Source: a virus. From it: 22,111 nt of DNA. Below the pieces are notes generated by a model. The model was given only the letters and a program-made list of their open reading frames with translations. It had not been told where the DNA came from and searched no databases. Location of the stretch: positions 1-22,111 of IMG/VR virus record IMGVR_UViG_3300020190_000389, one strand, 5' to 3'. Made by a program: the position numbers and the translations under genes. Below are positions 2,013 through 17,840 of this stretch, one piece after another (the stretch's first letter is position 1; each line of letters opens with the position of its first letter).

Positions 2013-2020
2013 GGAAATAA

Positions 2021-4744
2021 ATGTCATTCAATCCAATAACATCTTTACAATCAACCGATACCTTTCAGACTTTATTTACTAGAAATAATGAAGTAATAAG
2101 TCGAATTAATTCTTTAAAAATTGGAGGTATAAGTGCCGGAACTGGAATTATTATTAATGGTCCCAATAATCAAGGAGGAATAACATTAACTGTTGATTTT
2201 TCTCAAGGCACCGGCATTTCTGGTAATACTGTAATTACAATAAATGGAAATGTGCCGACAGGATTAGGTTTAAACTCTCCAATAGGAATAACTGGTGGTG
2301 TATTGGGAGCTTGTTCTACTAGTAGTTTAACTTCTTGTAGAAATTTTTTAGGATTCATATCAGACATAGCAGCATCTTCATATAAAATAACATCTAGTGG
2401 CAAAGTTTTTAACTCAAGTCTTTCTGAGAACACTTTATATTATTTAAATACCACGGGTGGTATTACTCCAACTCGTCCAACTGCAAACAACTCTATAATC
2501 AAACCGGTCTTGTTTAATATTAATTCAACATCAGGAGCAATTGTTCTACAACAAAACGAGACTCTAATAGATATTGCCTCCTCTACTTACATACAGTCAA
2601 GTTCCAGAAATATAGCTCAAATTCCTTCTAATGGTTTAGTACTAGGAGATACTGTTTATTTTGATATAGCATCTAATCAATGGAAAAAAGCACAAGCAAA
2701 TAATGCTGAAACTTCTGAAGTATTTGGTATTATCGAGTCTATCTCTGGCAGTACTGCTTCTGTAATTACTAACGGATCTATTACTACTATTCCAGCAGGT
2801 AAATTAAATAATTTAGGATCAGGTGGAGAAGGAGGAAATGATATTTGGTTTTTATCACCAACTATACCAGGATCTTTACAAAACCAAGGAGCTACATTAG
2901 CAGGACACATTGTAAAACCCGTATTTTATCAATTTCCACACACAACAGAAGGAATTGCATATACAGGTTATGTGGTAAATTACAGTGGTTATTTTGCAGG
3001 TGGGTCTGCAGCTGGCGGAGTAGCTGGTGGGGGTGGTGGTGTTACTAAAATTATAGCTGGCACTAATATTACTGTACAGCCTTCGAGTGGTTTAGGAGAA
3101 GTGACGATTAGTGCTTCTGGTGAGGGTGGGGGTGGGGGTGGTAGTATCACGACAATACAAGCAGGTTCCGGAATCCAGGTGACCGACGGTACAGGTCCGA
3201 CAGTAACAATATCAACATCAGAATCAAATCTAATTAGAATTGGAGAATTGAAACAAGTTGCATATCATGGAGCAAACAGATTTGTTTTTAAAAATTGGTT
3301 ATCTTCTGTAATTAAGGCGTCAGAAGGTGTTCAAACTAAGGCTGAAAACTGTGTTTGGTTAACTTCTTTTCCTTGTGATTTCAGAATTAGACCTGATAAT
3401 AATTATACTCAGTTTTTAGGAATCACATTTGAAGCTAACCAACTTACTCAAGCGCCGCTGCCATCTGTTCACAGATTAACTGATTCTAATTATATTGCAA
3501 TGGATGGAACATTGTATCTTGCAGAAAATCCATGGACTCCGATTACAAACGTATGGAAAGACGAATTTTCAAACGCATTACTCAGTACAGGAAATACTTT
3601 TAGTGTTCGTGATGATATTTTTACGAATCTGCCATTTCAAGGAGACGGCTCAGATAATACTACTACAGGTAAAGGAAGGACATACGAATCCGGCAGATAT
3701 CCATTAGAATTATTATGGAACAGTGGAGTAAATTCTATTGCAAGAGTACAACCTAATATAAACGAAGAAGATCCGATTGACACCAACAATATTGGAGGAG
3801 ATCTTAGTGGAGGTTCCGTTAATACCACAAGTCGTTGGAGAAGATTGATTCAATTGTGGTTTACTCAAAACGATCCGGAGGGAAACGCCTGGCCCTTAAT
3901 CAACTGGGCTAATGTGAGAGCAATATATTCAGATGAATTTAATGCCTTACTTGGTAACACTCTTATTCTTCCTGGTTCAGAAGGAGAATCCGAAATGGGA
4001 GACATACAGGATCCACTCGTAAACCCTGGTGCCTCGAATGACTGGCCTGGTGCTGGCATAGAACTTACAACATTTCGATCATCTATGGGAGGAGAAACTA
4101 ACCCGAATTATAGGAAATTTAAAAAAGAACTATTAACTTCTTTTTATCTTCCAGGATTTATGTTTCAACCTAGAACATATATAGGGGATACAAGTTCGTT
4201 TAACTCAGAAGATTCTCCTACATCTCCTGAAGAAAAAATTAAAACCAATTCGGAAGACGGAACAATTGATTTGTACTCTAACTGGATGATACACAATGCC
4301 CTACAAGATGTTCATGCAGACTGGCAAAAGATAGGATTTATTATACCAAGACAAGGTAGAGAGAAAACTAGTAATAGCGAAACTCTTGTAGATGTACCAC
4401 TCGCACAGCGCAGAGGAGGATTGTATTTTTATTCTCCTTATTATTGTATAACTGAAGGCATATGGGATTTGGATAAAGTTAATGTTCACAATTTTTTTAA
4501 AAATGTATCTAATCCACAGGTGCCGCCAGCACTACTAAATACTCCAAAAGCTATGCAATGGCATATTCGCGTAGGAGATAACACAGTGGATAATAGTCGA
4601 AAAGTTTTTCTGTTTCAACCCACATGGGTGCAACTTATTGCAGGATTAAACGGAATTCATTGTCCAGACTGGTCCAATCCAATTAGATCCGCCCAGGAGG
4701 ACTTTGCAGCTCCGCTTCCTAGAACACTGATGCGATTGTTTTAA
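2021..4744 (+). CDS. Large tail-fibre/adhesin-like structural protein with glycine-rich hinge
   Basis: A 907-residue protein preceded by a good Shine-Dalgarno (AAGGAA, 2011-2016) and a late promoter octamer. Residues 1-60 open like a trimeric fibre (SLQSTDTFQTLFTRNNEVIS, then 'GISAGTGIIINGPNN'). Residues ~60-320 are beta-rich with repeated Ile/Thr/Ser/Gly stretches. Residues ~325-376 form a flexible Gly hinge in two blocks flanking 'VTKIIAGTNITVQPSSG', a short beta repeat common in phage fibre shafts ('I-x-AG-x-x-I-x-V'). Residues ~395-907 are a large, more globular region rich in Trp, Tyr, Asn and Pro with few cysteines, and this may be the receptor-binding or enzymatic head. No catalytic motif could be recognised there. 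By position, downstream of gp8 and upstream of the collagen-like array, it is probably a baseplate-attached fibre or a replacement for gp10/gp12. The function is inferred from architecture only. Confidence 0.6.
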   Translation: MSFNPITSLQSTDTFQTLFTRNNEVISRINSLKIGGISAGTGIIINGPNNQGGITLTVDFSQGTGISGNTVITINGNVPTGLGLNSPIGITGGVLGACSTSSLTSCRNFLGFISDIAASSYKITSSGKVFNSSLSENTLYYLNTTGGITPTRPTANNSIIKPVLFNINSTSGAIVLQQNETLIDIASSTYIQSSSRNIAQIPSNGLVLGDTVYFDIASNQWKKAQANNAETSEVFGIIESISGSTASVITNGSITTIPAGKLNNLGSGGEGGNDIWFLSPTIPGSLQNQGATLAGHIVKPVFYQFPHTTEGIAYTGYVVNYSGYFAGGSAAGGVAGGGGGVTKIIAGTNITVQPSSGLGEVTISASGEGGGGGGSITTIQAGSGIQVTDGTGPTVTISTSESNLIRIGELKQVAYHGANRFVFKNWLSSVIKASEGVQTKAENCVWLTSFPCDFRIRPDNNYTQFLGITFEANQLTQAPLPSVHRLTDSNYIAMDGTLYLAENPWTPITNVWKDEFSNALLSTGNTFSVRDDIFTNLPFQGDGSDNTTTGKGRTYESGRYPLELLWNSGVNSIARVQPNINEEDPIDTNNIGGDLSGGSVNTTSRWRRLIQLWFTQNDPEGNAWPLINWANVRAIYSDEFNALLGNTLILPGSEGESEMGDIQDPLVNPGASNDWPGAGIELTTFRSSMGGETNPNYRKFKKELLTSFYLPGFMFQPRTYIGDTSSFNSEDSPTSPEEKIKTNSEDGTIDLYSNWMIHNALQDVHADWQKIGFIIPRQGREKTSNSETLVDVPLAQRRGGLYFYSPYYCITEGIWDLDKVNVHNFFKNVSNPQVPPALLNTPKAMQWHIRVGDNTVDNSRKVFLFQPTWVQLIAGLNGIHCPDWSNPIRSAQEDFAAPLPRTLMRLF

Positions 4745-4764
4745 ATAAAAACTGTAAACATATT

Positions 4765-5913
4765 ATGTCTAGTTTTGTACGAAACACATTCAATGACGGC
4801 ATAATAGGTCCAACAGGCCCAACAGGTCCTATTGGACCAATTGGTCCAAGAGGAGACACTGGAGCAAATATTTTTGGTCCAACTGGTTCTTCCATAACAG
4901 GAATAACATTAACTGATTCTCGATTGATATTTACATGGGAAAATGGATTTACAGCCAACAGTGAAACAATCAAAGGAATTACTGGACTTTGGGTTGTTCA
5001 ATTTGGCGTAACTGCACCAGACAATCAAATTATTAAAAGTTTTTCTAGAAACCCTAAAATACTGTCAAATTCTCCTACTATTACTACAAGTGATTCTTTG
5101 GTTTTAAAAACTATTCATACCAAGACTCCAGATGTAATAGAAATTAACAGAATAGAAGACAATAGAATACAAATTTCATATGTTGGATCTAGTGGAATTA
5201 CTTTAGATCAAACAAATTTAAATCAACTTGTTATTGCTACTAGTAGCAATGCATTTGATGGAGCAACAAATACAAATTGGAATCCTACTACTGGAGTTTT
5301 AGATTGGACTATAGCGCGATATGCAGAATTTACTCAAAGATTAGCAATAATCGATACCTCCTATAACATAAATGTAAACGATGGATCTGTTTTTTTATTA
5401 ATCGACGAAGGCACCAATAACGTACAGATTAATCTTACGGGAACCATACCTTCCAACCAAAGTGCTGGAATTACTATTATTATCCCGAGGACGACACCTA
5501 CTGTTACTTTTGATATAAAATCATCAGTTCTAGCGAGTAAAATAAGATTTCCGTTAATAGCACCATTACCAAAGACAGGAGTAAATATTTATACAGGAAT
5601 ATCTATCGGAAATATTTGGTATTTTTCTTGTAGTATGCTTGGTGGTATAAGTAACACTAAAACTTCATATTCTGACATAAATCCAACATTCAATCAGAGT
5701 GAAGCACTTCAGATGCTTGTAGGAAATTGTTGGAACAAATCAACTACAGACAATCCTATTTGTTCTACTTATGACCTCAATTCAGACGGCTTCATAGACG
5801 CCACCGATCTGACGTTACTTCTGTCCGCGTGGGGCGCGAACGTATTTGATTTCTATAGTGGATGTAATAGCATAAAAGGACCATCGTTTACTCGAGAGTG
5901 TATATCAGGATAA
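4765..5913 (+). CDS. Collagen-like virion protein with C-terminal dockerin-like calcium-binding motif
   Basis: A 382-residue protein. Residues 15-35 are perfect Gly-X-Y triplets (GPTGPTGPIGPIGPRGDTG), with a second short 'GPTG' at 38-41. Such phage collagen-like tracts form trimeric stalks. Residues ~45-310 are a beta-rich trunk with 'ITGITLTDSRLIFTW' and, near residue 172, 'NWNPTTGVLDW'; both recur in the 7602 protein, so the two are paralogues. Near the C-terminus D337-x-N339-x-D341-G-x-I-D345-x-x-D348 followed by 'LTLLLSAWG' is a textbook type I dockerin/EF-hand calcium loop. Only one of the two loops of a canonical dockerin is present. Cys residues flank it (GNCW, PICST, SGCN). The short coding stretch for this loop is visibly more GC-rich than the gene around it. 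No clear Shine-Dalgarno precedes the start; TTTAAATA at 4740 is a one-mismatch late octamer. Probably a virion surface fibre; the role is inferred. Confidence 0.62.
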   Translation: MSSFVRNTFNDGIIGPTGPTGPIGPIGPRGDTGANIFGPTGSSITGITLTDSRLIFTWENGFTANSETIKGITGLWVVQFGVTAPDNQIIKSFSRNPKILSNSPTITTSDSLVLKTIHTKTPDVIEINRIEDNRIQISYVGSSGITLDQTNLNQLVIATSSNAFDGATNTNWNPTTGVLDWTIARYAEFTQRLAIIDTSYNINVNDGSVFLLIDEGTNNVQINLTGTIPSNQSAGITIIIPRTTPTVTFDIKSSVLASKIRFPLIAPLPKTGVNIYTGISIGNIWYFSCSMLGGISNTKTSYSDINPTFNQSEALQMLVGNCWNKSTTDNPICSTYDLNSDGFIDATDLTLLLSAWGANVFDFYSGCNSIKGPSFTRECISG

Positions 5914-5916
5914 ATT

Positions 5917-7605
5917 ATGAAAAAACAATCCAGCAATCCTCTTAGTGCATTAAATATAAACGGATCTTGTCTTTACGAAGGACCAACAGGACCAGTATGT
6001 ATCTCAACGAATGCAGAAAAATGCCAGAGTCAATACAAAGGAGTGTTCGTAGAAGGATCAACATGTGGCTCAGCTTCTGGACTGAATGGAAGTTGTTGTT
6101 TATGGGATCCTGAAAACAAAACAATACTTCCGTGTCAAACTTCAACATTTTTAGCATGTCAGACGTTAGCCGAATCGTTTAATTTTAAATTTAATTGGTC
6201 TGTTGTTTCATGTAAAGAAAGAAAATGTGAATACGTTTTTGAATCTAAAGCATCAAGACAACCAATACTGGGTGCCTGTTGCAACGGTAACGGACTATGC
6301 AAGGAAACTACACAAGAAGATTGCGAAAACAGTCAATTCTTTTATCAGGGAAACGGTACTATATGCGACAAAGGAATTTGCATCGAAGGAACAGGAGGAT
6401 GTTGTAACGGAGTAACCTGTAATGATGGTATCACTGGAACTTATTGTGTTGAAAATAAGAGTTTATATTTAGGAAAAGGAAAACGATGTTGGGAATTTAC
6501 ATGTGAAACAAATCGACTTCCATGTTTGGACTCTATAACAACAGAAAAATTAAAAATTGGTGATCTATTCGAAGGCGGAGTTGTCGTCGGAATTTATCAA
6601 CCAGGAAATAGCAAAGGTATAGGTCCTAAATTTTTAACAAATCAAGTAGAAATAGATGATTTATTGAAATCTGAAGCAGAAACAATAGAATTAACTACTA
6701 TTGCAGATGGAAGAGGATATGGAGAAATTGAAGAGAACTTGTGTGAAATAAATTACAGTTATATTATGATTATGTCTATGAGTCCTATCGTTAATGATTT
6801 GACTAAGACAAGATATACATGGTCTAGAGATTCAAATGCTTGGGGACCGTTATTTACTTCTTGGGGAAAAATACTAGAATCTAATACAATTGATTTGAAT
6901 CTTAAAAATGAAGGATTTGTTTACAATAACGTTTTTTCGAATAAAATAAATAATAGTATTATTCGAGATAATATGGTAAATTACTGCAATAAAAGATCTG
7001 TTGGAGATGATCCGATAAAAAGACTAGATAATAGATCTACTCAAGGAATATGTGGAAAGTGGTCGACGGATTGGGGAATGTACAATACAATACGATTAAC
7101 TAATGCAAAGATTTTCGATCAAGCAGGAATAGATTATGATCAGTATTTAACTAAATCATTATACCAGAGTGGAGAAAAATTCGATTCAAATAGAATGGTT
7201 GATTTAGCAACAGCGATTTTAGAATACAATAAAACATCTACTTCTGCTAATAATCCCAACACATCAGATTGGTTTGTTGCTTCTGCAAACGAATGGGCTT
7301 ATATATTGAGAGAAATTAAATTAAATAATCTTAATGAAACTCTTATTGCAGCAGGAGCATATCCTATAACAGATATTAATTGGACTTCTACTGGAGCGTT
7401 CGATTACAAAAATTTAGAAGGAATATCAGAAACCGGAGAAACTTGTTCTGTAGGAAAGGTGGCGTTGGCAGTAAATAGTAATACAATGAAGTTTGAAATA
7501 AGAAACAGAATGGAACCTGCTTTAGCAAGACCTATACGTCTAGTTACATGTAATGGCAAATATCCCACCTCAGATTATTCTTCTCTATGGAGAATCAATA
7601 AATGA
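5917..7605 (+). CDS. Cysteine-rich repeat protein with DUF1566/C-type-lectin-like C-terminal domain
   Basis: A 562-residue protein starting 3 nt after the previous stop, with AGGA (5907-5910) as Shine-Dalgarno. Residues ~10-200 hold four to five cysteine-rich repeats, for example 'GACCNGNGLCKETTQEDC' and 'GGCCNGVTCNDGITGTYC', likely disulfide-bonded outside the cell. From about residue 213 to 555 the protein resembles the DUF1566 (Lcl C-terminal) fold, a C-type-lectin/FGE-like domain. The landmarks are 'IGDLFEGGVVVGIYQ' (~215), 'WFVASANEWAYIL' (~452), 'INWTSTGAFDYK' (~487) and 'ALARPIRLVTC' (~536). They match the family pattern G-G-x-V ... W-R-x-P-x-x-x-E-L ... W-S-S-x ... VRPVR. Such folds often bind glycans or receptors at phage fibre tips. 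Its stop overlaps the next start (ATGA at 7602). The domain call comes from motif reading, so an alternative C-lectin subfamily is possible. Confidence 0.62.
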   Translation: MKKQSSNPLSALNINGSCLYEGPTGPVCISTNAEKCQSQYKGVFVEGSTCGSASGLNGSCCLWDPENKTILPCQTSTFLACQTLAESFNFKFNWSVVSCKERKCEYVFESKASRQPILGACCNGNGLCKETTQEDCENSQFFYQGNGTICDKGICIEGTGGCCNGVTCNDGITGTYCVENKSLYLGKGKRCWEFTCETNRLPCLDSITTEKLKIGDLFEGGVVVGIYQPGNSKGIGPKFLTNQVEIDDLLKSEAETIELTTIADGRGYGEIEENLCEINYSYIMIMSMSPIVNDLTKTRYTWSRDSNAWGPLFTSWGKILESNTIDLNLKNEGFVYNNVFSNKINNSIIRDNMVNYCNKRSVGDDPIKRLDNRSTQGICGKWSTDWGMYNTIRLTNAKIFDQAGIDYDQYLTKSLYQSGEKFDSNRMVDLATAILEYNKTSTSANNPNTSDWFVASANEWAYILREIKLNNLNETLIAAGAYPITDINWTSTGAFDYKNLEGISETGETCSVGKVALAVNSNTMKFEIRNRMEPALARPIRLVTCNGKYPTSDYSSLWRINK

Positions 7606-8870
7606 CAAATATTCCTGGGAGTTCTTCTATTCCTGTGTTTCGTGGAGTTGGTCTGATCGGTTCAGTAGGACCTAATGGCCCAACCGGGCCCACTGGAATA
7701 ACTGGAAGTCCTGGACAATGTTTGCCAGGAGTAACTGGAATAGGAATTTCTGGAATAACTGTATCGGAAAATAATTTAATTTTGACTTTTGGTACTGCAG
7801 ATAATCAAGTAAATATACTTCATTCTTCAATAAAAGGAAATACCGGTACGAATAGTGTAAATGGTTCTGTTTTTAATATACAGGCAAGTTCATTGTCGGG
7901 TCATCACATATTTCAAACATTTAGTCCAGAAGAGTTTAGTACTAGATCTGTTACATTTTCAGCAAATCCTAATCAAACAAAAACACCTAAATTTTTAGGG
8001 ATTACATTCAATAACATTGATGTTATTGATGGTGCTACTTTTTATAAAATAAAAAGTCTTAAAACACTCTATAGTCCTTCTGGTTCTAGTGGTCAATTGG
8101 CTTATGTAGATCAATCGTTAGATAAATTTACAGTAAGAGGAGCCACTGGAACTTTATGGAATCCCATTACCGGTTTGCTTCGATATGTTCAAAACTACAC
8201 TAAAGAAATTGATAATTTTAGTTCTACTGATAACAGAGACAATTATAGATCTGAGAATATCAATACTATCGGGGGAACAGTAATTACTGGAGGATGGGGA
8301 AGTGGGATCACTTTTACTATACCGGTAACTACTATTTCTGGAAATACAGGACAATCAGGATTAATTGTTTCGGCTCCTACTAATATAAAAATACCATTTT
8401 TTTCTACGAATCATTCTAGTGGAAATACTGCAAATTTATTAGTAGGGGGAGCAACACTAGGTTCTTGTTTTTTGAGTACAATTCCAGATCCAAGAAAAAG
8501 ATGTGTTGATTTTATAAGTGAACCGTATTGTAAATCTATTCAAGGAAGTTGGAGCATAAATCCGTGTTCTAATAGAGAAGAAGTATTTTCTGCCGTTAAA
8601 ACTTGTTGTATATATAGTTACGAATTAGACAAAGTTACTTGTATAGAAACATTTGAATCTGAATGTTTACAGTTTATGGGATTACCTGGAAACTTAAGTA
8701 AATGTTCTGTTTACGAAGGACTAATGAAAAAATGTTCCAATTTAATAGATTTGTGTCTGGAATGTGATTCCGGACAATGTTGCTATAAAGGAATTTGTAC
8801 AGAAGAGTCAGAATATGATTGTATAACCAAAAATCCTGGGGCAGTTTGGTTTTCTGGAAAAACATGTTGA
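7602..8870 (+). CDS. Collagen-like virion protein with C-terminal cysteine-rich repeats
   Basis: A 422-residue protein overlapping the upstream stop by ATGA, so translation is probably coupled. The N-terminus reads 'GSSSI' and then a Gly-X-Y tract at about residues 17-38 (GSVGPNGPTGPTGITGSPG). The trunk, residues ~45-280, is paralogous to that of the 4765 protein: 'ISGITVSENNLILTF' and 'LWNPITGLLRYV' match 'ITGITLTDSRLIFTW' and 'NWNPTTGVLDW'. From residue ~286 the dockerin of the 4765 protein is replaced by three cysteine repeats (KRCVDF..., KTCCIY..., GQCCYKGICTEE...), each with a double-Cys or Cys start and a Gly-x-Trp/Gly-x-x-Trp-type centre. The last repeat runs to the C-terminus. The exchange of C-terminal modules on a shared stalk and trunk looks like modular evolution of a virion adhesin. 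No enzymatic motif is visible. Confidence 0.6.
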   Translation: MTNIPGSSSIPVFRGVGLIGSVGPNGPTGPTGITGSPGQCLPGVTGIGISGITVSENNLILTFGTADNQVNILHSSIKGNTGTNSVNGSVFNIQASSLSGHHIFQTFSPEEFSTRSVTFSANPNQTKTPKFLGITFNNIDVIDGATFYKIKSLKTLYSPSGSSGQLAYVDQSLDKFTVRGATGTLWNPITGLLRYVQNYTKEIDNFSSTDNRDNYRSENINTIGGTVITGGWGSGITFTIPVTTISGNTGQSGLIVSAPTNIKIPFFSTNHSSGNTANLLVGGATLGSCFLSTIPDPRKRCVDFISEPYCKSIQGSWSINPCSNREEVFSAVKTCCIYSYELDKVTCIETFESECLQFMGLPGNLSKCSVYEGLMKKCSNLIDLCLECDSGQCCYKGICTEESEYDCITKNPGAVWFSGKTC

Positions 8871-8884
8871 GTCAATTTTTTTAG

Positions 8885-8892
8885 TATAAATA
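8885..8892 (+). promoter_or_regulatory. T4-type late promoter (TATAAATA) for the giant gene
   Basis: An exact TATAAATA in the 114-nt gap between the 8870 stop and the 8985 start, the largest non-coding gap in the array. T4 geometry predicts transcription starting at about A8898, one base before ATG 8899. Confidence 0.65.
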
Positions 8893-8898
8893 ATTAAA

Positions 8899-8985
8899 AT
8901 GAAACTAGAATATAATACACGATCACTTAAAACTAATTTTAGTGTGGTTATTTTTGAAATAATTAACAAGAAAGACTTAATATAA
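8899..8985 (+). CDS. 28-residue upstream ORF (possible leader peptide), overlapping the giant gene start
   Basis: ATG at 8899 opens a 28-codon frame (MKLEYNTRSLKTNFSVVI and ten further residues) ending in TAA at 8983-8985, which shares its last A with the ATG of the giant gene (TAATG). There is no Shine-Dalgarno ahead of it. With the late promoter at 8885-8892 the transcript would begin about one base upstream, so translation would be leaderless. The giant gene itself lacks a strong Shine-Dalgarno, so stop-start coupling from this ORF could set its translation. The sequence matches no family I recognise, and its short length means it may be a chance frame. Confidence 0.35.
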   Translation: MKLEYNTRSLKTNFSVVIFEIINKKDLI

Positions 8986-11900
8986 TGCCTCCTGGTAGTG
9001 ACACGGGTAGTGGTGGACCTATATTTGGCGGCGGAGGCGGCGGAGGCGGCGGAGGCGGCGGAGGCGGAGGCGAAGGCGGCGGGCCGAACCCCGGCAATTG
9101 CCAGTTCGCCTGCTCATGCGATCGATATGCGTACATATGCTGCATATTCGGTTGCTGCCCGCTCGCTGGGGGGGACGGGTTCCATGGCGACTGCGATCTT
9201 TGGCTTACGTATGTAAACAAAAACGGCTTTGGCCCCCAAAATAGAATTAGTTGTGGGACCTCAAATCCGCCCTCCTCCACTGTGATTCAAACATGTGCGC
9301 CGTACGGAGAACCCTTTGTCAGAATTCCGCCCGAGAACAGGCCGCCGGGCGCGAGCCGATTCTGGGGGTTTGCAAAAAAACTAGGCAGTTATTGTGGTCC
9401 GATACATGTACTACGTGGCATCTTCGGCTCGCAGACAGACTGTTGCCGCCCTCCCTGCGCGATGCAGCACCAGGAATGTAATATGGCGTGCTTAGAATCG
9501 GGCACACCTGATGACTACTGCCATAATTATTCAGTTAAAACATATTTAACTACTTCTGGAATTAATCCGTATCGTGGAATACATTATGAAGCAACAGATA
9601 AACAATTGATTCCTCAATCGTACACAGGAACAACATTATACGGAATATACGCATCTGTTATTCCTGGAACCACATTTCCTTGGTGTGTAATCGGTACAAC
9701 ATCCTCCAGTATTAATCCGTGTTTTCCTGTGTTCGGTGACACCGAACAGTGTTATGTTTGTAAAAATATAAATACAAAGTTTATTTCTCCTAGTGTATTC
9801 AATACCAATACTATTTTGGGAAAACGATCCATAGGACAGGGTATAAATGGTGCCCCCTCGCCTGTTTCGCAAAATATTTTTACTTTTAATTCAATATTTG
9901 ACCAACAGCAACTCAAGAACATTGAAAAAATTGGAAGTAATCCTTTCTATTCTATCTCAACAAATAGACAATTCCAAACACTTGGAGTAATGAATCATGC
10001 CAAATATATAAACTCCTTTTCTTATTTTGGACTTACTGGATTGGGATGGAAGAATTTGAATATGGTTAGAGGAGTTCCTATTCCATTTAATTTTCCGAAT
10101 TTTGACTCGAACGACGCAACAAAACCCCTCTTTTCAAACGGATTTAATAATTCCATAGAAATAACTGCGGGCGACACTGCAACAGCATTCATAACACCGA
10201 ATTACATCCAGGCAGCACAAGGAAAAACTTTTTTCTGTGTTATAAATTCTAACGATTGTTCTGTTATAACAGATCATTCTACAGAACTTCCTGGAGAACA
10301 TCCCGATACAGTCGATGATCCGAATTACGGGCGTCCATATAAGCATTGGTGTCATATATTGAGAGATCAGGGATATGAAAGCATAAACCCAGCAGGAATA
10401 ACAAATAGAACTCTTGACGACTTATCTTTTAATAAATTAAGATATGCAAATAATTTAGGTGGTATAATCCAAGATTCCGATAGAATTATAGCTCGAGCTG
10501 AAACGGAACTCAGAGAAATAAGCGAAGAAAGCAACAGAATACCGCACTACATTAGTGGTAATTTTACAGAAACTGGTGAAGGAGATGTATTTGCAAGGAT
10601 ATGGAACGCACCTCATGTAAATCCTTATAGGTCTTTTGGATTTGATTATTATCGTGTATTCGAAACGTCATCAGGAATATCGTATCAGGCTAATTATAAA
10701 GATTTTCCTGATGGAGTATTTGGAGTAAGACCTGATTTATTTATTTCACGAATAATAACTAGAAATTGTCGAACTGATGGTAATTTATTTCCTATTGGAT
10801 ATGGAACAACAGCAGATTTACAAAATAATACTAGTTGTAATACTCATCAGTGGTTAGGCTGGGACAATTGGGGAATCACCAATCCATTTGAGCATTACAA
10901 AAATACAAATTGTGATAGCGACAACTTCAATCCTTCTAGATTTTATTATAATCAAATTTCTTTAGGAAATCAACACGGATTAGTATCACTTGGAATAGTT
11001 CCCGATGTAGCGGACGAAGCAGATTTCGTATATAAGAACCCTATTTCTGATATTAATTTTAAGCAAAGAGAAAAAAACATAAGATACTTGATACAATTTT
11101 CTGGTAAAGAAGTTTCGCCGTTACCAACTGACGGGATTTCTCGTTGGTCTACGGAACAGCTTGATCTTGCAGATGCTGGTAGTATTAATTTGTCATCATA
11201 TCCTGTTTCGAAATTTCTGAATCAACCAATCGAGGATGAAATATCGTATAGGATTTTTAATTTTACTGGTAGTTCTCCAGATAGAATCTGTAGTATAGAA
11301 GTTACAGGCGGATTAACCTTTGATGATATAACAGAAGATTTTTGTAGACTGAGTCATAAGTCTATCCAAGCAATTCCTCATTTAATTAATAAAAGTCTAT
11401 TAAGAGAATACGTTGGATTTGTCGGTGCAACTGTACGAAACGCAGGTTTTAATACTGAGGCGCATCCTATATGGAAACCGAGTCATAAACCGCCGATAGT
11501 ACATATATTAGACGCAGAAGGAATCGCCACACTAATTATAAAAAAGACAAATCCGGGTGCATTATATCCAACTAGTATTGGTTTATATAGAAATGCCAGT
11601 TGGAATTGGATTAGTGCCGGAACTAGTGGAAATAACTGTGCAGTTTTAGCATACACCCATGATAATAAGAGAATTCATAAGTTTTTATGTTGGGGTTCTC
11701 GGTACAACATACCAAATCCGGATCCAAAACATTGGCCAACTGGTATCTCTTTTCAAGAACACACAACTTCTTCTAATATTTGCACAGCTGGATTAACAGA
11801 AGACTGGAAACCATGTCAAGTAGATGTGACGATTGATACTCCTATATTTTATTTGAAAACTTATCCGTTTTCTAGTTATTGGATACGCTCTGAGAAAAAT

Positions 11901-13190
11901 CCATCAAGTTTTCCTCAAATTCCATCCAATGGACCCTTATCTTCTCAATTAATATTTAACACAAGAGCAAAAGTTATAACAAAATCACATAATAATGATA
12001 CATGGATTAAACATGAAAATCAGGCGTTTGGTCCTCCTATATATTTTAATTTTTATCAAAAATCTGATGATACAAAAGATTTTTTTAAGAAATTCAATAC
12101 TCCAAACGGAAAAGACTTATTTAATAATCATCTAAGTACTATATACAGAACCTTTGAGACTATTAGTGATATATTTGGTGCAAAAAATTATCCAGACTTA
12201 CCCACATATCTAGAGGTTAAAGGAAATAATAACTTATCAAACCTGTTTACGGGAGCTACTTTTCAGAACTGGGATTCTTCTTTATTAGGTCATCCTGGTA
12301 CAACATCAGGAATCACTTTTGTCGGATTCGATAATTCGTATATTCCTGTATCCAGTCATACAGATTACAAAGAGAGTCCTGCAACTTATTTGTCTAATAA
12401 TCTATATTTACCGTCATGGACTCCAAATTATCCGTTAGTGAGTGGTGGTGCTCATTTATTAAATATACTAAATCCGGGTTCTACCTATACATGTGGTTGT
12501 GGTGGAGGACAAACAGGTTGTTGTATTTCTGTTAGCGGTTGTACTATAGATGTTGAATGGGCATGCAAAACTATAGGAGGAACATGGAGTCCTGGATCTT
12601 GCCCGACTACATGTAATTGTAACCCCCTAAATACTAATCCGACAACTCTTTCATTCAACGAATCTGAAGGAACTCAGAACGTAATACTCGGTCAGACAGA
12701 TCCATTATGTCAGTGGACTGTATCTGTACCCGGAAATTGTCTATGGATCACTGCTCCAACGACAGGAACTAGTACTAGTATTTCAGTATCAGTAGAACAA
12801 AATTCAACGACAACTACTAGAACATGTACAATTACTGTTACGGCAAGTAATGCTACTAAATCCATAACAGTAACCCAAACGGGAACAGGAGGAGGATCAA
12901 ATACTGGAGCGTGTTGTTTACCGGATGGTTCTTGCGTTGATTCTGTGACTCAGACCGAGTGTAACACACAGAGCGGCAATTACCGTGGCAACAATACAGT
13001 TTGCTCGCAGCAAAACTGTGGTAGTGGTGGTGGTGGTGGTGGATTTATAGACTGTTGTGATTATTTTGTAGGTCCTTGTTGTAAAAACAATAGTTGTGCG
13101 GAAAATACAACTCCACAAGAATGTTATACTGCTAAAGGTATATTTTTAGGATTTAATCGAACTTGTGACGATTGTCCAACAACGAGTTAA
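8985..13190 (+). CDS. Giant modular virion protein: poly-Gly/Cys-rich head, BACON-like domain, Cys-rich repeats
   Basis: A 1401-residue protein, the largest in the window. Residues 1-38 are almost pure glycine after a short start. Residues ~38-178 are very cysteine-rich (CSC, ICC, GCC, DCC, PPC), and this N-terminal coding stretch (to about 9520) is strikingly GC-rich against the AT-rich remainder. Residues ~180-1180 are a long region of unknown fold rich in Asn, Tyr, Ser and Pro; within it 'ISAGTSGNNCAVLAY' followed by 'KFLCWGSRYN' (~residues 876-910) resembles one RCC1-type blade. Residues ~1180-1210 hold a cysteine repeat (TGCCISVSGC ... GGTWSPGSC). Residues ~1216-1301 look like a BACON Ig-fold domain: 'TLSFNESEGTQNV', 'CQWTVSVP', 'CLWITAPTTGT', 'CTITVTASNATKSITVTQTG'. 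BACON domains bind glycans or mucin in phages and gut bacteria. Residues ~1307-1401 hold two more cysteine repeats separated by a Gly run. Probably a large surface adhesin; the function is inferred. Confidence 0.6.
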   Translation: MPPGSDTGSGGPIFGGGGGGGGGGGGGGGEGGGPNPGNCQFACSCDRYAYICCIFGCCPLAGGDGFHGDCDLWLTYVNKNGFGPQNRISCGTSNPPSSTVIQTCAPYGEPFVRIPPENRPPGASRFWGFAKKLGSYCGPIHVLRGIFGSQTDCCRPPCAMQHQECNMACLESGTPDDYCHNYSVKTYLTTSGINPYRGIHYEATDKQLIPQSYTGTTLYGIYASVIPGTTFPWCVIGTTSSSINPCFPVFGDTEQCYVCKNINTKFISPSVFNTNTILGKRSIGQGINGAPSPVSQNIFTFNSIFDQQQLKNIEKIGSNPFYSISTNRQFQTLGVMNHAKYINSFSYFGLTGLGWKNLNMVRGVPIPFNFPNFDSNDATKPLFSNGFNNSIEITAGDTATAFITPNYIQAAQGKTFFCVINSNDCSVITDHSTELPGEHPDTVDDPNYGRPYKHWCHILRDQGYESINPAGITNRTLDDLSFNKLRYANNLGGIIQDSDRIIARAETELREISEESNRIPHYISGNFTETGEGDVFARIWNAPHVNPYRSFGFDYYRVFETSSGISYQANYKDFPDGVFGVRPDLFISRIITRNCRTDGNLFPIGYGTTADLQNNTSCNTHQWLGWDNWGITNPFEHYKNTNCDSDNFNPSRFYYNQISLGNQHGLVSLGIVPDVADEADFVYKNPISDINFKQREKNIRYLIQFSGKEVSPLPTDGISRWSTEQLDLADAGSINLSSYPVSKFLNQPIEDEISYRIFNFTGSSPDRICSIEVTGGLTFDDITEDFCRLSHKSIQAIPHLINKSLLREYVGFVGATVRNAGFNTEAHPIWKPSHKPPIVHILDAEGIATLIIKKTNPGALYPTSIGLYRNASWNWISAGTSGNNCAVLAYTHDNKRIHKFLCWGSRYNIPNPDPKHWPTGISFQEHTTSSNICTAGLTEDWKPCQVDVTIDTPIFYLKTYPFSSYWIRSEKNPSSFPQIPSNGPLSSQLIFNTRAKVITKSHNNDTWIKHENQAFGPPIYFNFYQKSDDTKDFFKKFNTPNGKDLFNNHLSTIYRTFETISDIFGAKNYPDLPTYLEVKGNNNLSNLFTGATFQNWDSSLLGHPGTTSGITFVGFDNSYIPVSSHTDYKESPATYLSNNLYLPSWTPNYPLVSGGAHLLNILNPGSTYTCGCGGGQTGCCISVSGCTIDVEWACKTIGGTWSPGSCPTTCNCNPLNTNPTTLSFNESEGTQNVILGQTDPLCQWTVSVPGNCLWITAPTTGTSTSISVSVEQNSTTTTRTCTITVTASNATKSITVTQTGTGGGSNTGACCLPDGSCVDSVTQTECNTQSGNYRGNNTVCSQQNCGSGGGGGGFIDCCDYFVGPCCKNNSCAENTTPQECYTAKGIFLGFNRTCDDCPTTS
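9026..9085 (+). repeat. GGC-GGC-GGA tandem repeat encoding poly-glycine
   Basis: A short tandem array based on the nine-base unit GGCGGCGGA, repeated about four times and then degenerating through GGAGGC and GAAGGC. It encodes roughly 15 consecutive glycines, then Glu and three more Gly. It stays in frame, so length changes by whole codons would be tolerated. Repeated GG runs on the coding strand could stack as G-quadruplex-like structure. Confidence 0.8.
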
Positions 13191-13193
13191 CAT

Positions 13194-15308
13194 ATGAGTA
13201 TAATTGGATCTAGTTCTATATTAACAACAGGTATTCCTGGTCCTGTAGGGCCGATAGGTCCTACAGGAAACACAGGAAATGTAGGATTATCTGCTGCTAA
13301 CTGTGAAAATTTAGCAAGAGGAGGAACTTCTACTTATATAACCAGTGTAAAACAAGAAAATAATCCGTATGCTAATACTGTATTCTCTTTTTCTGATAAT
13401 CAAAAACAATCCTTTATATATTCCAAACTAGCAGGATCTACTTTATTTGATTCGTATGGAGTTCTTGGGAGTGCAGTGTCTACTCCTTCTATTTTTATAG
13501 CGGCTTCTGGATCTAACGCAGGAGTTACATATCATTTCAAATCAATTAGTTCAGAAATAGCCGCAATGGAAGTTACTTCCGATTCTGATCATATCTATAT
13601 TAATGGTCCGGTTAATCCATATGATGCAAAGGGATTCATTGAAAATGAGTTATTGTATTTTACTGGTAAAACACAAGATCCTATTTTAGACGGTATAACT
13701 GGAGGGCTAGGTTCTTTTAGATTTGAACCAAAAACGAATCACTTCAGTGTTAATACAGGAATATTAACCAGAACTATAGTATCTACCATTTCTTCTGCTG
13801 CTATTGGAAGCAGTGGTAGTTATATTGATATAAGACAAGGAGGAGTATTTTATATCAATACTCCAAACGGAATATTAGGAATAACAGGAATGACTGGTAG
13901 TGTAGGTTCTACTGGAAATATTATAACATTAACAGTCATTACTCAAAGTGATTATATTTGGAAATTTCCAACAAATGTCTGGTTTGAAAAAGGAGAAAAT
14001 TATTTAGGATGTGGTGAGACTGTTATAAATTTAACATCCAATAATAATGGTTTAAACTGGAACGCAACTGTTTTTGGAAGAGGATTTAACTCTACTGTTT
14101 TGACTTGCAATTCTTCATGGGATATGGGATCTTGTAATTACAATCAAGGTCAAACTTGTAATAATTATATTACTCGTGCAGATTGTAATTTAAGTAACGG
14201 CATATTTTGTCTCAGATCTTGTGATTTAGAATGGGAAGTATTTGATACCGGATCTTGTTGTATTAATGGAGTATGTAAAGACAATACTTCAAAATTTTTA
14301 TGTACAAAATACGGAGGTAGATGGTGGAGTCCGGTTCAAACCGGTAATAACGGTTGCAATGCATTTAAATGTTGGGATCCTTGTGTAGACGGACCAGGAT
14401 CTTGTTGTCCTCCCGCTGGATCCACTTGTTTAGACAGACATTCCAAAACAGAATGTGATATGCTCAGTGGAACATGGTCGGGAGAAGAGTGTAATCCATT
14501 TAGTTGCACACCTCTTGGTGGTAGTATAGGAGCATGTTGTTTGGGTCCCAATTTATGTGAATCACTAACCTATAAGGATTGTGCAAAAAGAGGAGGAATA
14601 TTTACTGGTATCGGAGAATTGTGTGGAGAAGTTAATTGTGACTGTTTCAATTACTTGCCGTCAGGAATAGGTTGTGGAACAGGAATTTCATTTTCCGATT
14701 CCGGAGTAAAATTTTCAGAATTTCAATTAAATACCAATGGATTTGATTTTACTGAAAGTGAAGGAATAACTAGTGCTAAAATTTGTTTTAGATATAAACC
14801 ACTAGGAAAAAAAGATAGATTCTTTATCTTACGAACAAATGATGCAGATCCTGCAATTAAGTCAGGAATAAGAAATCTTCCAGCAAAAAATTATTATGAT
14901 AATTATATTCCATTTATAACTAACCCAATTTTAAGTCATCCTAGATATGTTAATCCAGAAAATCCACAGAGTAAAGATGGAACTAATTATGATACTGCTA
15001 TTTTCGACTCAGGATGTACATCTGGAAACGAATGGAAAAATGTGGAACTAACAATAAAAGATTCTGATGTTGAAATATACGATAATACTGATCAATGGTA
15101 TAAAAAATTAAGACTTTGGGTCTTTGCTGGTTGTGATCCAACTCAATCAGGTGCAACTAAATGGTTTTTGGGAATAACTTGTGACGAATGTCCAACTCAG
15201 TCCTCATTAGCATTAATAAATTCGGTCGAAAATGTCAATAGTGCTGATACAAAAATAATAAATATAGCAGACAGTGTATTTAAAATAATCGGCGGAGATA
15301 TCTCATGA
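13194..15308 (+). CDS. Collagen-like virion protein with four cysteine repeats and a unique C-terminal domain
   Basis: A 704-residue protein starting 3 nt after the giant gene's stop. It opens with 'MSIIGSSSI' and a Gly-X-Y tract at residues 13-31 (GIPGPVGPIGPTGNTGNVG), the same plan as the 7602 protein. Residues ~35-300 are a beta-rich trunk of the same general type, with a second short collagen-like 'GMTGSVGSTGN' near residue 240. Residues ~305-485 contain four cysteine repeats, including 'GSCCINGVCKDNTSKFLC', 'GSCCPPAGSTC' and 'GACCLGPNLCESLTYKDC', each with a Gly-Gly-x-Trp or Gly-x-Trp/Phe centre. Residues ~490-704 are a separate domain of mixed character that I do not recognise, containing 'CDPTQSGATKWFLGITC'. 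The end overlaps the next start (ATGA at 15305). Probably a trimeric surface fibre; no enzyme motif is seen. Confidence 0.6.
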   Translation: MSIIGSSSILTTGIPGPVGPIGPTGNTGNVGLSAANCENLARGGTSTYITSVKQENNPYANTVFSFSDNQKQSFIYSKLAGSTLFDSYGVLGSAVSTPSIFIAASGSNAGVTYHFKSISSEIAAMEVTSDSDHIYINGPVNPYDAKGFIENELLYFTGKTQDPILDGITGGLGSFRFEPKTNHFSVNTGILTRTIVSTISSAAIGSSGSYIDIRQGGVFYINTPNGILGITGMTGSVGSTGNIITLTVITQSDYIWKFPTNVWFEKGENYLGCGETVINLTSNNNGLNWNATVFGRGFNSTVLTCNSSWDMGSCNYNQGQTCNNYITRADCNLSNGIFCLRSCDLEWEVFDTGSCCINGVCKDNTSKFLCTKYGGRWWSPVQTGNNGCNAFKCWDPCVDGPGSCCPPAGSTCLDRHSKTECDMLSGTWSGEECNPFSCTPLGGSIGACCLGPNLCESLTYKDCAKRGGIFTGIGELCGEVNCDCFNYLPSGIGCGTGISFSDSGVKFSEFQLNTNGFDFTESEGITSAKICFRYKPLGKKDRFFILRTNDADPAIKSGIRNLPAKNYYDNYIPFITNPILSHPRYVNPENPQSKDGTNYDTAIFDSGCTSGNEWKNVELTIKDSDVEIYDNTDQWYKKLRLWVFAGCDPTQSGATKWFLGITCDECPTQSSLALINSVENVNSADTKIINIADSVFKIIGGDIS

Positions 15309-15547
15309 CTACAAATTTTCGCTCAAGAATACCTGATATTATAAATCACGACATTGTATTGCATCAAGGAATTTGTTGTACCGGAAACAGCAGAATAGGA
15401 TCTACAGGAGAATTCGGATATCATGAATGTTTTGCAAATAATGGACAATATTTTCCGTACATATATTCTATAGTTGGTTCTACTGGAACGATAATCACAT
15501 CCGCAATACCAACATGTGAACAAAGAAATCCAAAAAATGTCACTTAA
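15305..15547 (+). CDS. Small cysteine-rich protein, probably the N-terminal half of a split gene
   Basis: An 80-residue frame that overlaps the preceding stop by ATGA and has a good Shine-Dalgarno (GGAG, 15294-15297, 7 nt spacing). It carries one cysteine repeat of the local type (GICCTGNSRIGSTGEFGYHEC ending before 'ANNGQYF', with a last Cys in 'PTCEQRN'). It ends abruptly after 'RNPKNVT' just past a run of six A's (15532-15537). The next frame (ATG 15537) continues with another cysteine repeat and the lectin-like domain, exactly the order seen in the single 5917 protein. The likeliest reading is that 15305-16343 is, or was, one gene of about 345 residues interrupted by a one-base shift at the A6 run. 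Independent coupled genes remain possible. Confidence 0.5.
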   Translation: MTTNFRSRIPDIINHDIVLHQGICCTGNSRIGSTGEFGYHECFANNGQYFPYIYSIVGSTGTIITSAIPTCEQRNPKNVT

Positions 15548-16343
15548 TTCGACTGAAATTAAAATATTAAATGAAAGCAAACTTATGTGGGGCAGTTGTT
15601 ATACAACAATTGATCAAGATAATGAAAAATATACCTCATGTAAAGAATCAATTGCGTATGAATGTAGTGGATATTTTGAACCACAAGATCCATGTTCTAC
15701 ATTTAATTTTTCAAACTTATTTAAACATGATAATAATTGGCAATCTTATAGTATGCCCGGAGCTAGTTTTTCTAATATTAGTATAGGATCTGAGTTCCAA
15801 GGGATAATATATGCAGGAAATTATACTCCGAGTTCATTTCAAATATCAGATCAACTGAAAACTTATACTTCTCAAGATTCTAATAGTTATGCAATTTTTG
15901 TTTATTCTGATTTAGTTTCTCAATCTTTTGATTCATATAATCCATTAAAAAAAGATACTTCTGCTTTTAGTGGTTCTTATAATAAATTTTTTGGAAATAA
16001 AATAAATTCTATATTAAATAGTTCAGATTATTCAGATATTGGAATACTGTGGTCTGATTTTTGTGTTCCTTCTTTAGGAGAATTGGTATTTCTAAAAAAT
16101 CAATTTAACTCTATAACAAATTTTAGAGCCAAATTAAATTCTTTATTGTCTGGAACAAATTTTATATTAACATCATCTACTGTTTTTGTTGGAGATACAA
16201 TTAGTTACAGACAATTAAAACCATTTAATCAAAAATTTTTATATGGAATAGATCTAAACTCTGATACTATACCATATCCTTTAATAAGTTCAAAATTAAA
16301 CATACATAACGTGGTTCACACTAGATCAATTCCTTTAACTTAA
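15537..16343 (+). CDS. Cysteine repeat plus DUF1566/C-type-lectin-like domain protein (probable C-terminal half of split gene)
   Basis: 268 residues from ATG 15537; a GTG at 15516 is in frame, but neither start has a clear Shine-Dalgarno. It overlaps the preceding gene by 11 nt in another frame. Residues ~14-45 hold a cysteine repeat (GSCYTTIDQDNEKYTSC, then 'YECSGYFEPQDPC'). From residue ~75 onward it parallels the C-terminal domain of the 5917 protein: 'IGSEFQGIIYAGNY' against 'IGDLFEGGVVVGIYQ', 'WSDFCVPSLGELVFL' (~172) against 'WFVASANEWAYIL', 'NFILTSSTVF' against 'NWTSTGAF', and a final 'HTRSIPLT' against 'LARPIRLVT'. It is a shorter paralogue with the same DUF1566/C-lectin-like fold, probably a receptor- or glycan-binding tip. 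It lies directly after a collagen-like gene, repeating the 4765-5917 arrangement. Confidence 0.58.
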   Translation: MSLNSTEIKILNESKLMWGSCYTTIDQDNEKYTSCKESIAYECSGYFEPQDPCSTFNFSNLFKHDNNWQSYSMPGASFSNISIGSEFQGIIYAGNYTPSSFQISDQLKTYTSQDSNSYAIFVYSDLVSQSFDSYNPLKKDTSAFSGSYNKFFGNKINSILNSSDYSDIGILWSDFCVPSLGELVFLKNQFNSITNFRAKLNSLLSGTNFILTSSTVFVGDTISYRQLKPFNQKFLYGIDLNSDTIPYPLISSKLNIHNVVHTRSIPLT

Positions 16344-16353
16344 TAAATCTAAT

Positions 16354-16818
16354 ATGGGATGTGGTTGTAATAAAAATAAAAACTCTGAAAAATCCTGCAC
16401 TGGCACGGATTGTCCGTCAACAAAAGTAGCAAAAGAAATTACAATTCAACATCTGATTGAACCCGTTTCTAATATAAATACTCGTAGTGTTCCTGTTTGG
16501 TTAAAACAAAAAGGTTATAATATGGATCAAGAATTTAAAAAACGAGAAGTGGCGCCTTCAAATCCGATTGCAAAAGGATTTGGAATGGCAACAAGTTTTA
16601 TTAATGCAATAGCTTCTAAAGGAGTTAACAGCGAAAAAGTAAACATTCCCTTAAAACAATTACGAGTATTGAGTTGTTTTGGGAATAAAGATTCTGGTGG
16701 AGTATTGCCTGCTTGTGAATACCTACAAACAAGTGCGACACCAGGAAAATTCTTTTGTGGAGGATGTGGTTGTGGAGATAAGCCTCTTACTTGGTTAAAC
16801 GGCACTGCAGACGAATAG
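16354..16818 (+). CDS. Small cysteine-cluster protein (hypothetical), probably truncated by a frameshift
   Basis: A 154-residue protein starting 'MGCGCNKNKN', with further Cys pairs (CTGTDC), a central Cys (LSCFGNKDSGG, ACEYLQ) and a dense C-terminal cluster 'FFCGGCGCGDKPLTW'. The spacing suggests bound metal, zinc or iron-sulfur, but this is not demonstrated. No membrane segment or signal peptide is visible. It lies between the lectin-like array and the neck genes, and its role is unknown. It ends at TAG 16816-16818, while the -1 frame carries on with '...DYPKLACPLQMPGFSNY', another Cys/Pro segment that looks like a natural continuation. The stop may therefore be bypassed by -1 frameshifting or result from a one-base loss. 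No Shine-Dalgarno is obvious before the ATG. Confidence 0.55.
   Translation: MGCGCNKNKNSEKSCTGTDCPSTKVAKEITIQHLIEPVSNINTRSVPVWLKQKGYNMDQEFKKREVAPSNPIAKGFGMATSFINAIASKGVNSEKVNIPLKQLRVLSCFGNKDSGGVLPACEYLQTSATPGKFFCGGCGCGDKPLTWLNGTADE
16794..16800 (+). promoter_or_regulatory. Candidate -1 frameshift slippery heptamer G_TTA_AAC
   Basis: The heptamer is in register (TTA AAC codons of the 16354 gene) inside the only interval where a shift to the -1 frame avoids both stops: the -1 frame is open from 16782 and the 0 frame closes at 16816. GTTAAAC is a used slippery site in some RNA viruses. No strong stimulatory stem is evident downstream. Confidence 0.3.
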
Positions 16819-16847
16819 ATTATCCAAAACTTGCCTGTCCTCTTCAA

Positions 16848-16988
16848 ATGCCTGGGTTCTCTAATTATAAAGAATCTGCACCAGAAGAATCTGTTGCACC
16901 AGTTACTCGTCGGGCCTATATCGAAAAGATGAAATTTGAAGAATTAAATTCGGTTTCAGTAACCATGCCAGAAGATCCTAAGAGTTAA
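16848..16988 (+). CDS. Small hypothetical frame, probable C-terminal extension of the 16354 gene
   Basis: From ATG 16848 this gives 46 residues (MPGFSNYKESAPEES ... RRAYIEKMKFEELNSVSV). The same frame is open back to 16782, with a TTG at 16791, and upstream of the ATG it reads 'DYPKLACPLQ', which looks conserved in style (Cys-Pro, Pro-Gly) rather than random. No Shine-Dalgarno precedes ATG 16848. The best explanation is that this is the end of the preceding cysteine-cluster protein reached by a -1 shift, giving a product of about 205 residues. The alternative is a separate small gene starting at TTG 16791 or ATG 16848. The charged tail may be a short helix. Function unknown. Confidence 0.4.
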   Translation: MPGFSNYKESAPEESVAPVTRRAYIEKMKFEELNSVSVTMPEDPKS

Positions 16989-17009: not shown

Positions 17010-17032
17010 GCTCCTTATAAATAAAATGGAGC
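17010..17032 (+). promoter_or_regulatory. Small hairpin that would sequester the gp13 ribosome binding site
   Basis: GCTCC (17010-17014) pairs with GGAGC (17028-17032) around a 13-nt AT-rich loop containing the late promoter octamer. The 3' arm is the Shine-Dalgarno for gp13. In T4, genes such as e (lysozyme) use a hairpin of this kind to block translation of read-through RNA while late-promoter RNA escapes it. The five-pair stem is short, so it may form weakly. Confidence 0.4.
17016..17023 (+). promoter_or_regulatory. T4-type late promoter (TATAAATA) for the neck/terminase block
   Basis: An exact TATAAATA in the 48-nt gap before gp13. T4 geometry puts the transcription start at about G17029, inside the GGAG Shine-Dalgarno (17028-17031), leaving only about 8 nt of leader. 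It lies in the loop of the 17010-17032 inverted repeat. Confidence 0.6.
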
Positions 17033-17036
17033 AATA

Positions 17037-17840
17037 ATGGGAAATATTAACTCAAAAGACAAAATTATTAAATACGCACTCAGGGCATTAGGTCATCCTG
17101 TAATAGACATCAATGTAGACCACGAACAATGTCTGGATCGCGTAGACGACGCGCTAGAGTTGTTTGCAGAACGACACTTTGATGGAGTAGAAAAGGTGTA
17201 TTTTCGTCATACTATGACCGAAGATAATATACAAAAACGATATATTGATACAGAAACCTTATCTAATCCTACCGGTATAACCGGAGACGGACCCGATGGA
17301 ACAACCATAGTAAGTGTTGTAAAATTATTTCGTTTTAGTAATTTTGCTAACATTAATATGTTTGATATCAGATATCAACTTGCCCTAACAGATTATTTTG
17401 GCATCAATAGAGGACTGGCTTCTCAATCCTCACTAGGTCTTCCTCAATACAGCGCAACAAAACGATATATTAATTTAATTGAACAATTTTTTGCTCCAGA
17501 AAAAGCCATAAGATTTAGTAAAGTTAAAAACAGAATTTATATTGACGGAACTATGGAAGAATTATCAGCAGGTGCAGTTATGGTTATTGAGGCCTATGCT
17601 GCACTGGATCCAAACAAGTACACTGAAATATACGACGACAGATTATTAAAAAAATATGTTACTGCACTAATTAAAAGACAATGGGGAGCGAATATGGCAA
17701 AATTTGATGGAGTTCAATTGCCTGGTGGAATCACCACTCGAGGCGCTGCAATTCAACAAGAGGCAATACAAGAAATAGAATTAATCGAAAACGAGATAAG
17801 AGGAACACACGAACTACCTTCTGACTTCTTCATAGGATAA
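17037..17840 (+). CDS. 13: Neck protein gp13 (head completion)
   Basis: A 267-residue protein with Shine-Dalgarno GGAG 5 nt upstream. T4 gp13 (309 aa) works with gp14 as the neck that closes the filled head and receives the tail. The N-terminus here carries the family signature: 'ALRALGHPVIDINVDHEQC' followed by 'DRVDDALELFAERHFDGVEKVYFRH', a helix-rich start in which the 'D-x-x-DDAL-x-F-x-x-x-HFDGVEK' run is characteristic of T4-superfamily gp13. The C-terminal half is helical with 'KKYVTALIKRQWGANMAKF', also typical. It is the first gene of the conserved 13-14-15-16-17 block and is followed by gp14 after 3 nt. It is shorter than the T4 protein. Confidence 0.9.
   Translation: MGNINSKDKIIKYALRALGHPVIDINVDHEQCLDRVDDALELFAERHFDGVEKVYFRHTMTEDNIQKRYIDTETLSNPTGITGDGPDGTTIVSVVKLFRFSNFANINMFDIRYQLALTDYFGINRGLASQSSLGLPQYSATKRYINLIEQFFAPEKAIRFSKVKNRIYIDGTMEELSAGAVMVIEAYAALDPNKYTEIYDDRLLKKYVTALIKRQWGANMAKFDGVQLPGGITTRGAAIQQEAIQEIELIENEIRGTHELPSDFFIG

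Follow-up and report, generated by a model that had tools for sequence, protein, structure and literature searches.

We describe a block of genes in a T4-like phage fragment that lies between a gp8-like baseplate gene and gp13 and that is probably a receptor-recognition cassette of putative collagen-stalk, glycan-binding proteins exchanged as a unit. The window, i.e. an IMG/VR virus fragment taken over the full 22,111 bp of its record, runs from the gp8-like and VrlC-like genes over a 907-aa protein, collagen A, a Cys/lectin gene, collagen B, a 1401-aa Cys/BACON gene, collagen + Cys C, an 80-aa ORF, a lectin-like ORF and a small Cys gene to gp13-gp17 and the start of gp18 (Table 1). What occupies the position of the lost T4 tail genes in aquatic T4-like phages is not settled in the literature; the cassette is one concrete answer. 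The place of the block and its hypervariability are known; new are its content, its clade-wide occurrence, the sharp allelic border and the structural model of a presumed receptor-binding head. It thereby offers candidates for receptor binding, a set of natural alleles whose border is exactly placed, and a first pointer to hosts among the Planctomycetota.

Table 1. Features of the window with positions, strand and supporting evidence.
Feature	Position	Strand	Evidence
gp8-like baseplate wedge gene, 5' end cut by contig	2..1330	+	phrog_438 baseplate wedge, E 1.8e-9
Short VrlC-like protein, 225 aa	1335..2012	+	DUF4815 below cut-off, phrog_358, hhalign to VrlC
TATAAATA, T4-type late promoter-like site before ORF 2021	1982..1989	+	motif count
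907-aa protein, N-terminal ~320 aa conserved, remainder diverged	2021..4744	+	comparison with relatives
Collagen protein A, 382 aa, C-terminal dockerin-like loop DLNSDGFIDATDLTLLLSAWG after 8 Gly-X-Y triplets	4765..5913	+	
Cys-repeat + Lcl_C/DUF1566 C-type-lectin-like protein, 562 aa, 28 Cys	5917..7605	+	
Collagen protein B of 422 aa with 8 Gly-X-Y triplets, a body and a Cys-rich tail with 18 Cys	7602..8870	+	
TATAAATA, late promoter-like site in gap before 1401-aa ORF	8885..8892	+	
1401-aa Cys/BACON protein, 59 Cys, poly-Gly N-terminus	8985..13190	+	BACON 32.4 bits
Collagen protein C with Cys repeats and two Gly-X-Y tracts, 704 aa, 34 Cys	13194..15308	+	
80-aa Cys-containing protein	15305..15547	+	44-53% in G002 and G008
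Lcl-like lectin protein of 267 aa, degenerate; closes the putatively exchanged block	15540..16343	+	
Right border of the putatively exchanged block	16343..16353	.	nucleotide identity step in seven relatives
Small Cys protein, marker gene just before gp13, frame-shifted in the window	16354..16988	+	~214 aa in relatives
gp13, conserved flank	17037..17840	+	phrog_211; hhalign 99.4% to T4 gp13
gp14, gp15, gp16, gp17, conserved flank	17844..21677	+	PHROG matches; 93-97% nucleotide identity, closest relatives

The ORFs between 4765 and 16343 are placed as a sequence-only reading of this DNA had stated, and gp13-gp17 then follow. The start of the interval has to be moved from 4765 to the left, as the variable block begins at about 1335. 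The gp8-like gene gives an hhalign profile match of 93% to gp8 of pelagiphage HTVC008M. Assignment of the ORF at 21730 to gp18 rests on its place because it has no PHROG match; its relative in the related contig G010, a gene of 462 aa, occupies the place of the sheath gene. The T4-type late promoter core TATAAATA occurs nine times in the window compared to 4.1 expected, a number reached in 1 of 100 shuffles, and stands shortly upstream of the ORFs at 2021 and 8985, of gp13 and of gp18 (at 1982, 8885, 17016-17023 and 21691). In relatives, the ORFs 16354-16818 and 16791-16988 correspond to one gene of ~214 aa; compared with these, the window is short of 10 bp near 16818, so that a frame shift splits the small Cys gene. 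Contig 3300021376_003021, which is 99.99% identical to the window, ends near 16818 in the relatives' form. Upstream of gp8, the gene between gp6 and gp8 (gp7 position) of G001 and G008 encodes ~395 aa, its counterparts in T4 and HTVC008M having 1032 aa and 1016 aa, respectively, and has no profile match to either of them.

The ORFs at 4765, 7602 and 13194 open with Gly-X-Y tracts of 6-8 triplets. They had been read as three paralogous collagen proteins, which holds for the shared collagen cassette; beyond it, hhalign finds only a weak similarity of A and B (E 1.4e-4 over 26 columns) and none of C to either of them. Collagen B and C have orthologues in the relatives G002 and G008 with 37-49% (blastp) and 38-49% identity, respectively. 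In collagen A, the Pfam families Collagen and Dockerin_1 both stay below their cut-offs (19.1 versus 22.9 bits for Dockerin_1), and a single loop is present instead of the two calcium-loop repeats of type I dockerins. In allele G002 (L035:8201-13900), collagen A is 1899 aa long and carries ten IPT/TIG domains (E 3e-109) after the dockerin-like loop. The 907-aa protein shares 52-56% with its relatives over residues 1-325 and 23-27% beyond, and has no family match and no PDB match; PDB sequence searches with this protein, the collagen proteins and the 1401-aa protein gave nothing useful. The sequence-only reading was right about the 1401-residue BACON protein, where PF13004 covers residues 1246-1298 with 32.4 bits against a cut-off of 25. 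Its first ~310 residues (8985-9915) have no match in allele G008, whose matches begin at residue 311, and a GGC-GGC-GGA poly-Gly tract at 9027-9079 lies in a region of 47% G+C as compared with ~35% around it, which suggests that this N-terminal part is a recent addition. The proposed repetition of the order collagen gene, then Cys/lectin gene is only loose since the second unit consists of three ORFs (13194-15308, 15305-15547 and the ORF ending at 16343). The last of these and the Lcl-type domain have the start motif GD.F.GGI..G.Y.P in common (hhalign E 2.7e-5 over 25 columns); this ORF also keeps the order W-PS-EL..SST..RSIP, and is 34-37% identical between alleles.

A DUF1566/C-lectin-like domain had been assigned to the protein encoded at 5917-7605. 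The window copy gives no Pfam match to Lcl_C (PF07603, formerly DUF1566), but Lcl_C, the sole Pfam family found, matches in half of the 26 aligned relatives (13) when E-values up to 0.01 are admitted, the best being 2.5e-7. Relatives scored singly reach 16.7-24.8 bits, below the curated cut-off of 34.9. AlphaFold2 modelled residues 206-562 from 26 sequences of the C-terminal domain with a pLDDT of 88.5 and a pTM of 0.92; these were used instead of a model of the whole 562-aa protein from 5 sequences, which had a pLDDT of 42 and was set aside. In Foldseek, the best PDB match of the modelled domain is the C-terminal domain of Legionella Lcl (8q4e, probability 0.97, E 0.057), followed by many C-type lectins with weaker E-values, and the BFVD matches include a 'tail fiber', several 'DUF1566' and one 'Collagen triple helix repeat' protein. 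As modelled, the fold of this C-terminal domain is Lcl/C-type-lectin-like, and the adhesin system that had been proposed fits both the domains and this fold. Caveats to such a reading are the shortness of the collagen tracts in the window and the E-value of the PDB match despite its probability.

Legionella Lcl (PF07603, PDB 8q4e) likewise combines a collagen stalk with an Lcl_C C-type-lectin-like head; it is a trimer that binds sulphated glycosaminoglycans (PMC11162425). Given these properties, the phage collagen/lectin proteins most likely work by analogy in the same way. Differences are that stalk (4765-5913) and head (5917-7605) are encoded by two adjacent genes in the window, that Cys repeats are added, and that these are genes of a phage tail region rather than of a bacterial surface protein. 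In the distant relatives G421, G422, G423 and G424, collagen A and the Cys/lectin protein form one chain, and in G422 (L204) the fused gene is followed by a collagen-headed ORF of 3870 aa with 438 cysteines. Phage-encoded collagen stalks that are thought to be parts of tail fibres are also known from the Escherichia coli prophage proteins EPclA-D (PMC3368898), which differ by their flanking domains PfN, Pf2 and PfC, by their origin from lambdoid prophages and by being without Cys/Lcl_C heads. Judged from the Gly-X-Y tracts, Lcl and the prophage collagen fibres, the collagen proteins of the cassette would form rigid trimeric stalks, and the disulphide-type Cys repeats, the BACON domain and the Lcl_C/C-type-lectin-like heads could bind surface glycans.

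This architecture recurs in a large uncultured clade of T4-related lake and sea phages that stands beside the Kyanoviridae, and not in the cultured cyanophages examined. At least 120 viral contigs encode the small Cys gene, which we used as a marker; 80 of these were kept, and 21 loci with 10 kb upstream of the marker were compared. In 20 of the 21, there are between one and three collagen ORFs and between one and four ORFs with Cys repeats, with 89-226 cysteines per ~3,300 residues. L260 and L288 have the small Cys gene with neither collagen nor Cys-repeat ORFs upstream, L288 being the exception in the set of 21. Five cyanophage intervals contain no collagen tract of comparable length, no Cys repeat and 2-19 cysteines; in the HTVC008M interval there is a single collagen ORF with 13 cysteines in all, and Cys repeats are absent. 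In a gp17 tree, in which several forks are weak, the window clade is separate (94/96) and adjoins the Kyanoviridae group (83/89), with the distant relative G421 outside both. Among 50,697 phage records, none matched any of the four array proteins searched at E 0.1.

The Cys repeats resemble those of surface proteins of Planctomycetota, and a planctomycete host or gene donor is therefore plausible as a lead rather than as proof. The last ~90 aa of the 1401-aa protein contain two Cys units, one of which shares 67% identity over 39 residues with Planctomycetota proteins (L070 and L123). In L123, the repeat and a dockerin-like loop resembling that of collagen A (58% over 24 residues) occur in the same planctomycete ORF. 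Phycisphaerae proteins with Cys repeats and dockerins thus share the GACCxPDGxC repeat and the dockerin-like loop with the phage, in which the two modules are found in separate proteins and are joined to collagen and BACON. In a genome collection, the pattern GACCxPDG[ST]C is present at 119 or more loci, and 102 of the 119 matches listed (86%) are labelled Planctomycetota; Phycisphaer-, Planctomycet- and planctomycete were counted as such in titles as deposited, and the genomes are fewer than the loci.

That these modules are unrelated to the host, i.e. that the phage infects other bacteria and its lineage acquired a widespread repeat, has in our view about an even chance. It agrees with the other 17 of the 119 listed loci, which are without a Planctomycetota label and include Zixiibacteriota, Bacteroidota, Myxococcales, Eisenbacteria and unnamed bacteria. 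Furthermore, a search for gp17 terminase in 397 genomes of the class of the planctomycete metagenome-assembled genome behind L133 gave one match of 27% and none higher, and neither tRNA genes, which are absent from the window and few in relatives, nor CRISPR provided a host link. A spacer-directed DNA search of the same 397 genomes was uninformative, with only the GGC-GGC-GGA low-complexity repeat among the matches listed. Against this reading stand the share of Planctomycetota among the listed motif loci and the observation that, of ten IMG/VR contigs with the motif, six (L183, L184, L186, L187, L189 and L192) code for relatives of this group's tail proteins, and a seventh (L190) is the near-identical sister contig of the window. 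In addition, psbA is absent from 20 related contigs of up to 118 kb, all fragments, which speaks against a typical cyanophage. It is possible, albeit doubtful at present, that a widespread uncultured T4-like clade infects Planctomycetota (Phycisphaerae) with adhesins made of the host's Cys-repeat and dockerin-like modules on collagen stalks, the whole cassette being exchanged between coexisting phages to change the receptor. A narrow search of the open-access literature found no papers on Planctomycetota phages.

The borders of the block point to its exchange. Protein identities of G008 and G002 to the window are 97-99% for gp13 and gp14 and 89-95% for the small Cys gene, compared to 24-67% in the block 1335-16343. 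On the left side, gp25 and gp6 are 99-100% identical between the window and G008, the gp7-position gene 93% and gp8 88%; past the edge, the values are 57% for the VrlC-like gene and 35% for the 907-aa protein. The left edge at 1335 refers to this comparison, as divergence from G002 already begins in the wedge genes. On the right side, nucleotide identity to seven relatives of other allele classes is 47-52% left and 82-93% right of the border; this step lies no more than a few bases from where the small Cys gene starts. The left sides form three classes (window and L012; L006, L007, L009 and L231; L011, L013 and L230). Gene order is the same and orthologous in independent contigs, which is more than chance. 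The natural reading of these alignments is that the block would be an exchanged cassette with at least three alleles. Module swapping as proposed earlier agrees with the sharp border and with at least three allele classes in one phage group. Since the gene order is fixed and the flanks are nearly identical, homologous recombination can exchange the whole cassette; it would act at the conserved flanks, i.e. the small Cys gene and gp13 on the right and the gp25-gp8 side on the left, between co-occurring phages and might switch their receptor specificity.

Fast evolution within a fixed gene order could also produce divergence of this kind, but taken by itself it is at odds with the sharp border. 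Rapid point mutation under selection without cassette exchange, including the action of a diversity-generating retroelement, would explain why every protein in the block diverges, and DUF1566/C-type-lectin-like domains are among the published targets of such elements. We consider this unlikely given that 15 related contigs of up to 118 kb, all fragments, contain no reverse transcriptase (PF00078), that the divergence spans ~15 kb including non-lectin genes and drops to flank level at 16343-16353, and that the sequences fall into discrete allele classes.

Replacement of T4 genes 9, 10, 11, 12 and wac, with which the array shares the position between gp8 and gp13 and a presumed role in adsorption, agrees with the profile comparisons. 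By hhalign, we compared orthologue profiles of the array proteins with wac and gp6-gp15 of T4 and also with the VrlC and gp8 proteins of the phages HTVC008M and S-SRM01. T4 gp9-gp12 and wac gave no match, while the controls gp13 and gp14 were found with 99.4% and 99.8%; canonical gp9-gp12 and fibritin folds, whose presence the sequence-only reading had named as a refutation, are thus not found at the level of sequence profiles. Strongly diverged orthologues of gp9-gp12 and wac that keep the canonical folds would occupy the same place in the late operon, and T4 gp12 and fibritin are likewise trimeric fibres. Such cryptic orthology is nonetheless improbable in view of the negative profiles next to these controls and of the well-modelled domain, which matches Lcl and C-type lectins rather than T4 baseplate folds.

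A receptor-recognition cassette would replace not only T4 gp9-12 and fibritin by the block 1335-16343, but also most of the VrlC of cyano- and pelagiphages. The 225-aa protein aligns with residues 1-296 of S-SRM01 VrlC (hhalign 98.7%) and residues 1-284 of HTVC008M VrlC (97.7%), whereas full VrlC has 2001 aa in HTVC008M and 2001-2431 aa across both phages; the window is without a complete VrlC. This short N-terminus, perhaps together with the conserved N-terminus of the 907-aa protein, may dock the cassette on the gp8/gp6 wedge. It has been reported that wac, g10, g11 and g12 are missing from cyanomyoviruses (PMC2984593). Pelagi- and cyanomyophages reportedly have VrlC in common, and between it and gp14 they carry a hypervariable host recognition cluster whose structural operon encodes collagen repeats and Mtd domains (PMC7029224). 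The place of the array is therefore known, and the novelty claimed for it holds for its content, but not for the loss of T4 genes or the hypervariable cluster. We found no published description of a VrlC cut to its N-terminus or of this collagen/Cys/lectin content. Like the host recognition cluster, the block is a hypervariable island between the VrlC/gp8 side and gp13/gp14, variable compared to its flanks, and encodes putative structural proteins with carbohydrate-binding domains, which in the cluster include collagen repeats and Mtd domains (PMC7029224). In contrast to the cluster, only the N-terminal 225 aa of VrlC are present in the window, the collagen / Cys-repeat / Lcl_C / BACON set has a fixed order and a sharp right border before gp13, its Cys repeats do not occur in the cultured cyanophage and HTVC008M intervals, and its gp17 clade stands beside the Kyanoviridae.

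We regard it as rather improbable that the array encodes secreted or cell-surface proteins that act outside the virion during infection, e.g. in coinfection exclusion or cell aggregation: BACON, dockerin-like and Cys-repeat modules are found in secreted bacterial proteins (planctomycetes), and the same island of pelagiphages carries surface-modifying genes (PMC7029224), but the position in the baseplate-neck operon with late promoter-like sites, the collagen N-termini right after the start codon region and the structural likeness to phage tail-fibre and DUF1566 proteins speak for virion proteins. Tandem expansion, by which the sequence-only reading had explained the array, is not supported, as relatives keep the gene order with orthologous genes and the paralogy outside the collagen cassette is weak. 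A 118-kb relative of the window (G426, L299-L301) contains at 79-106 kb, as read from its sequence, a series of genes resembling sugar-nucleotide and glycosyltransferase genes, along with more fibre-like ORFs that bear collagen.
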